Part shown: positions 55,934 through 57,254 of the stretch, one piece after another
Layout: every line of letters begins with the position of its first letter
Numbering within the stretch: the first letter of the stretch is position 1
DNA from: Candidatus Atribacteria bacterium
Lineage (GTDB): Bacteria; Atribacterota; Phoenicimicrobiia; Phoenicimicrobiales; Stramentimicrobiaceae
Assembly: GCA_029553585.1 (NCBI GenBank)
Contig: JAKPKS010000167.1
Location: forward strand, 1 to 64,000
Reading direction: 5' to 3'
Length of the DNA: 64,000 nt
Notes under the pieces: generated by a model
The model's input: the letters and a program-made list of their open reading frames with translations, nothing else
The model's database searches: none
What the model was told of the DNA's origin: nothing
Translations under genes and position numbers: made by a program

Positions 55934-56134
55934 ATGAAAATTAGTCAAGTTTTTCAAAAATTAATTAGCTTTATTAAAGAAGCCAGGGCTGAGCTAAAAA
56001 AAGTTACCTGGCCAAATAGAAAAGAATTAATCAGCAGCACTGTTGTAGTTATGATTACAGTGGTACTGGTTGCTATTTATCTAGGTGTAATTGACCTTTT
56101 CTTTTCTCGAATTGTAACCATGATTTTGCAGTGA
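55934..56134 (+). CDS. secE: Preprotein translocase subunit SecE
   Basis: Small clamp subunit of the SecYEG channel. The cytoplasmic amphipathic part has ARAELKKVTWPNRKELI (family core) near residue 17-33, followed by one membrane segment (about 36-62). At 66 residues it is the short one-helix type. AAAAGGTGAG precedes the ATG. nusG follows. Confidence 0.94.
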   Translation: MKISQVFQKLISFIKEARAELKKVTWPNRKELISSTVVVMITVVLVAIYLGVIDLFFSRIVTMILQ

Positions 56135-56197
56135 ATAGTTTAAGAAGAGCTAAATAAATATATATAATATAATACCCTACCGGGAGGGTGATTTAAG

Positions 56198-56737
56198 ATA
56201 ATAAGAACAGATGAAGATAAGGGATGGTATGTAGTTCATACCTATTCAGGATATGAAAATAAAGTTAAGGTAAACCTGGAGCAGCGGGTTAAATCTATGG
56301 GAATGGAAGACCAGATATTTCAGGTTTTAATACCCACAGAGAGGGTTCTGGAAACAAAATCAGGTAAAAAAAAATATGTACAAAAAAAAGTTTTTCCTGG
56401 TTATGTGGTAGTACAAATGAAATTGAATAACGAATCCTGGTATGCAGTCAGGAATACACCTGGAGTTACCAGGTTTGTTGGTTCAGGTGGTAAGCCTGTT
56501 GCCCTGGCAGAAAATGAAATTAAAAATATCTTAAAGCAAATGGGCAAAGGTGAGAAAAAGCCAAAGATAGATATAGAAATCGGAACAAGTGTTAATATTA
56601 TTAATGGCCCATTTACCGGCTATACTGGAAATGTTAAGGAGATAGATACACAAAGAAGTAAGTTAAAGGTCTTTTTAACTATCTTTGGCAGAGAAACATC
56701 GGTAGAGCTAGAATTTACTGATGTGGAAAGATATTAG
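56198..56737 (+). CDS. nusG: Transcription termination/antitermination factor NusG, probable ATA start
   Basis: Binds RNA polymerase and couples it to the ribosome or Rho. The NGN domain opens with GWYVVHTYSGYENKVK, and FFPGYV-like VFPGYVVVQMKLN, then VRNTPGVTRFVG follow; the KOW domain is near the end (GTSVNIINGPFTGYTGNVKE). The first ATG of the frame is at 56297, which would remove the first third of the NGN domain. Upstream the frame is open only back to a TGA at 56189, with no ATG, GTG or TTG. ATA at 56198 (or the next one) lies suitably behind GGGAGGGTGA and gives 179 residues, the family's length. Gene certain, start codon inferred. Confidence 0.88.
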   Translation: MIRTDEDKGWYVVHTYSGYENKVKVNLEQRVKSMGMEDQIFQVLIPTERVLETKSGKKKYVQKKVFPGYVVVQMKLNNESWYAVRNTPGVTRFVGSGGKPVALAENEIKNILKQMGKGEKKPKIDIEIGTSVNIINGPFTGYTGNVKEIDTQRSKLKVFLTIFGRETSVELEFTDVERY

Positions 56738-56831
56738 AAGTACATCTTTATATTATCATGTTTATAAGTTTTTATATTTATTAACTTGTTAATGTATAAC
56801 CAAATATGTAGCATGAAGAGGTGTAATGAGA

Positions 56832-57254
56832 ATGGCTAAAAAAATAATTGCCAGTATTAAACTGCAAATTCCTGCTGGAGCTGCCAATCCGGCACCCCCT
56901 GTTGGGCCGGCGTTGGGACAACATGCTCTCAATATAATGGAATTTTGTAAAGCATTTAATGAACGAACCAAACAGGATATTGGTACTGTTATACCGGTTG
57001 TTATCACGGTATATCAGGATAGAACTTTCGATTTTATATGCAAAAAGCCACCGGTGTCCTTTTTATTAAAAGAAGCAGCAAAAGTAGAAAAAGGTTCTGC
57101 TGAACCCAATAAAAGTAAAATTGCCAGGATAACAAAAGAAAAAGTAAAAGAAATTGCAGAAATAAAGATGCCTGACCTTAATACTGACCGGCTTGAAAGT
57201 GCTATGAAAATTGTAGAAGGCACAGCCCGTAGCATGGGTATAGAGGTAGGGTAA
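56832..57254 (+). CDS. rplK: Large-subunit ribosomal protein L11
   Basis: Part of the GTPase-associated centre. Opens [20 protein letters not shown], then [21 protein letters not shown] with the usual thiostrepton-region residues. An ATG two codons upstream (56826) is only 2 bases after GAGGTG; the ATG at 56832 has 8 bases spacing and gives the family's normal start and 140 residues. Confidence 0.95.

Follow-up and report, generated by a model that had tools for sequence, protein, structure and literature searches.

Where does the translation of nusG begin when its reading frame offers no ATG, GTG or TTG ahead of the conserved NGN domain? The question arises in a stretch of 64,000 nucleotides, hereafter the window, which is contig 198 of a 2.06-Mb Atribacterota metagenome-assembled genome (304 contigs, genome G000) and which carries tuf, rpmG, tRNA-Trp, secE, nusG, rplK, rplA, rplJ, rplL and rpoB, as named by eye. 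The gene upstream of nusG is a 66-aa ORF (55934..56134, + strand) identified as secE by eye from its SecE-like sequence and its position; the gene downstream is a 142-aa ORF with an ATG start (56826..57254, + strand) and an L11-like sequence, rplK. Between secE and nusG lies a promoter-like TTAAGA-17-TATAAT box (56140-56168) with 10 of 12 consensus matches; it was rejected as a nusG promoter, as an AT-rich stretch would yield boxes of this kind by chance.

The nusG reading frame and its first codon

The nusG coding sequence is read here as an AUA-started frame of 179 aa (56198..56737 including the stop, + strand), a reading based on the open frame, Pfam, PDB homologues and the conservation of the first codon. 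Upstream, the frame is bounded by an in-frame TGA (56189..56191, + strand), read directly from the window sequence and overlapping the Shine-Dalgarno (SD) sequence, after which come the codons TTT AAG ATA (56198) ATA (56201) AGA ACA GAT GAA GAT AAG GGA TGG. No ATG, GTG or TTG occurs in frame between this TGA and the first in-frame ATG (56297..56299, + strand). The product has the NGN and KOW architecture of NusG: the Pfam NusG family (PF02357) matches above its cut-off (8.4e-31) from residue 9 of the ATA-started frame, E. coli NusG and the solved PDB NusG chains align from query residue 7, and the C-terminal part aligns with NusG structures up to residue 178, the KOW matches being weak and below the Pfam cut-off. 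The ATG at 56297 corresponds to residue 34, inside the NGN domain; initiation there would therefore remove about 25 residues of this domain, and the residues upstream of it are conserved in all relatives aligned. A frameshift or a stop read-through from an upstream GTG or ATG could be envisaged instead, given that such triplets are present in other frames in some species, but they are unconserved, and in the window the GTG is followed at once by a stop (GTG ATT TAA, by eye). We consider both the internal ATG and these detours very unlikely.

The AUA initiation codon (56198..56200, + strand) is preceded by a strong, extended SD, GGGAGGGTGA (56182..56191, + strand), recognised from the strength of its pairing with the 3' end of 16S rRNA and from its conserved motif. 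The calculated energy of this duplex, -12.8 kcal/mol, is stronger than that of ~90% of 209 canonical-start genes, and the nusG SD falls within the strongest 4-21% in the nine family species compared, most of which have a GGAG(N)GTGA-like motif before nusG. The anti-SD is canonical in all 16S genes read, from one genome of the family (G002, GGATCACCTCCTTT) and three of the sister family. Folding of the nusG leaders gave no support for an SD-sequestering hairpin with a covarying stem, the z-scores being near 0 and the pairing no better than in shuffled sequences; the pairs ACCCT/AGGGT and ACACT/AGTGT, which had been attractive by eye, were rejected on this basis.

The nine species comprise that of the window and eight others of its family, which come from independent metagenome projects. 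The first nusG codon is ATA in eight of them and ATT in the ninth (G001), at a gapless, fixed distance from GGAG in all nine, and the second codon varies among ATA, ATC, ATT and AAT. From ATA to Trp the frame shows synonymous changes and no indels among relatives, and an in-frame stop at or near the position of the TGA is also found in G001, G008, G009, G006 and G005. These comparisons bear out the earlier note, which had proposed from the window that nusG starts at ATA, had placed GGAGG about 10 bases before the first ATA, as the sequence indeed reads, and had called for an alignment of related nusG 5' ends: an AUH codon occupies the position in every family species, and never AUG, GUG or UUG. 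The main alternative of that note was a one-base sequencing or assembly error hiding an ATG or GTG, for instance through a surplus T that would otherwise leave GTG ATT in phase with nusG. The fragmented state of the assembly would make such an error conceivable, but the same anatomy without an indel in eight further species refutes it, and we attach a negligible probability to it. We are thus highly confident, from the comparison of sequences, that AUA is the true nusG start in the family of the window.

This property is confined to a single family, to which all the nusG frames devoid of any canonical codon belong (110 loci examined, one further locus ending at a contig edge); the sister-family genes start with ATG and those read in families f4-f7 with ATG or GTG. 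Both A and G occur at the third base in 29 of 33 invariant Lys, Glu or Gln columns of nusG in the seven species scored; third-base A/G transitions are saturated, and the absence of AUG is therefore not due to a lack of time. A possible exception is G005, in whose nusG a TTG follows GGAG by 5 bases and precedes the ATA by two codons; this TTG may serve as the start and represent a return to a canonical codon. In G002 and G003 the in-frame TTG sits only upstream of the SD.

AUH starts in infC and in other genes

The best-known gene with this class of start is infC, which encodes IF3 and begins with AUU, AUA or AUC; it is autoregulated in E. coli and starts with AUA in S. aureus. In the genomes considered here, infC starts with ATA in 8/8 members of the window's family in which it was found, with ATT in 12/12 sister-family genomes, and with ATC, ATA or ATT, mostly ATC, in the remaining phylum. 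An AUH start of infC throughout the phylum and of nusG in one family only suggests that the former is probably ancestral and the latter derived, so that nusG would have acquired an infC-type start. The IF3 sequences encoded by these genomes look ordinary, no unusual feature being seen by eye, and thus offer no independent tie to nusG.

A census of about 337 orthologous genes in three genomes, scored for coding conservation that extends 5' of the first canonical codon, retained only nusG, infC, cvpA and glgE (identities by Pfam) as genes with AUH-type starts. It can be concluded from these sequence comparisons that AUH starts are rare and gene-specific in these genomes, since only four genes are affected. 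In cvpA, 10/10 family members have ATT or ATA just before an Asn codon, and some of them (G000, G005) also carry a canonical codon a few triplets further upstream; the sister-family genes start with ATG or GTG. The cvpA gene of G005 also has a TTG upstream of its start, which hints at reversion in that genus. For glgE, most genomes of both families have an apparent ATT or ATC start, which in G002 stands two codons downstream of a TAA; G000 has an ATG instead, three codons upstream of the usual position.

The initiator tRNA

Initiator tRNAs have in their anticodon stem three G-C pairs that are highly conserved in all domains (PMC7949028) and that contact 16S positions 1338/1339, and changing one of them alters start-codon discrimination (PMC11497404). 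The lineage departs from this rule: A29-U41/G30-C40/G31-C39 was found in every initiator tRNA read in the window's family (8/8; in the window genome at G000:C303:2564-2640) and in the sister family (11/11), and the three G-C pairs are intact in families f4, f5 and f6. In these sequences, A29-U41 replaces G29-C41 throughout the order. A-U variants of this pair also occur in some mycoplasmas and rhizobia. The molecule is otherwise typical, with a 1 x 72 mismatch and a CAU anticodon, and no compensating 16S change was found at 1338, G1338 and A1339 being unchanged in four genomes (one of the family and three of the sister family). Several family members have A1 x A72 in place of C1 x A72. In addition, G005 has a divergent initiator-type tRNA with intact G-C pairs beside a large recombinase-like ORF, with no match in G004; it may be foreign, as a tRNA-integrated mobile element, or belong to a contaminant contig, and was set aside in the analysis.

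The A29-U41 tRNA could shift start-codon discrimination in either direction. It might be argued that it lowers discrimination throughout the lineage, so that AUH codons become nearly neutral and drift in. This proposition agrees with the distribution of the variant, present in the two families and absent from f4, f5 and f6, which keep three G-C pairs, with the apparent AUU start of glgE in both families, and with the altered discrimination caused by another change of the anticodon stem, C30-G40 (PMC11497404). However, a general relaxation should reach further than the ~1% of compared genes affected, and it does not account for the family-wide retention of AUH in nusG, cvpA and infC, nor for the ATG-started nusG of the sister family, which has the same tRNA. 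Moreover, infC has AUH starts with either type of tRNA, including in the families with three G-C pairs. We regard relaxed selection as improbable. The lineage provides a natural test of how start-codon choice and the initiator tRNA's anticodon stem evolve together.

A possible coupling of NusG synthesis to IF3

The reading that we favour, and hold to be fairly probable, is that nusG translation is capped by an AUA start that IF3 discriminates against and that the strong SD offsets; we infer the repression by IF3 and its physiological purpose. The strong SD, at its fixed distance, would place the 30S subunit on the AUA, which the ordinary CAU initiator tRNA would read (AUU in one species) with a third-position mismatch. 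IF3 would reject such codons and keep nusG output low, and output would increase whenever IF3 runs short with respect to 30S subunits. This scheme is consistent with the destabilisation by IF3 of initiation at codons other than AUG, GUG and UUG, which controls infC in E. coli and sigR in Streptomyces (PMC5472188). A dependence of the nusG start on IF3 is likely in our analysis, and the idea gains support from the AUA start that infC, too, has in these genomes and from the exchange of AUA and AUU in both genes without passing to AUG. As infC uses the same codon class, here AUA, NusG may follow the level of IF3. Part of the NusG of E. coli sits on free 30S subunits (PMC7618293), and a common scale for the two proteins would therefore make sense. 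Taken together, the start suggests a deliberate restraint on NusG production, exerted by start-codon proofreading.

A simpler view is that the AUA is real but sets no more than a low constitutive rate, which balances the secE-nusG-rplK cluster, IF3 varying too little to regulate. A weak start would indeed be an easy means of reducing the yield of a single gene placed between secE and rplK, and the AUU-started cvfC1 of S. aureus gives a constant low output with no effect of the medium (PMC13009471). On the other hand, GUG, UUG or a weak SD would do equally well, yet the nusG SD is strong, and the codon class common to nusG and infC is left unexplained, although it is compatible with chance. We judge this view unlikely, while granting it more weight than relaxed selection. 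Of similarly limited likelihood, in our opinion, is a broader version of IF3-dependent control, in which infC and glgE, with nusG and cvpA in the window's family, would form a regulon read by IF3 and enabled or tuned by the A29-U41 initiator tRNA, transcription elongation capacity being set by translation-initiation proofreading.

The kind of start described here is already known from infC, sigR and ccpN, whereas the gene, nusG, and the lineage are new; no published AUA-started nusG in such a lineage was found in the openly licensed literature. To our knowledge, established natural AUA-started genes are very few and, apart from infC, hardly any of them is a core gene. With infC, nusG shares the codon class, the strong and suitably spaced SD, the lack of a usable canonical codon (G005 possibly excepted) and the conservation of a non-canonical start across species. 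In contrast to infC, its product is NusG and not IF3, so that the control would act on a second gene and would not be autogenous, the codon class alone being common to the two in this respect. Streptomyces sigR likewise encodes a transcription factor and has kept a start outside the canonical set, but it is another gene with another codon (GTC), and repression by IF3 has been demonstrated experimentally for sigR (PMC5472188), whereas for nusG it is what we infer. In S. aureus, AUA or AUU starts are found in ccpN (AUA), cvfC1 (AUU) and citZ (AUA), and such starts with an extended SD yield ~10% of AUG expression, as for ccpN and cvfC1, the extended SD being conserved at several of these genes, ccpN and cvfC1 among them (PMC13009471). 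These are specialised or metabolic genes, whereas nusG encodes a universal elongation factor and its start is conserved across the genera of the family. A family-wide AUA or AUU start in such a gene would tie transcription elongation, and the bridge between transcription and translation, to start-codon proofreading. At a more practical level, an annotation restricted to ATG, GTG and TTG starts would truncate NusG here.
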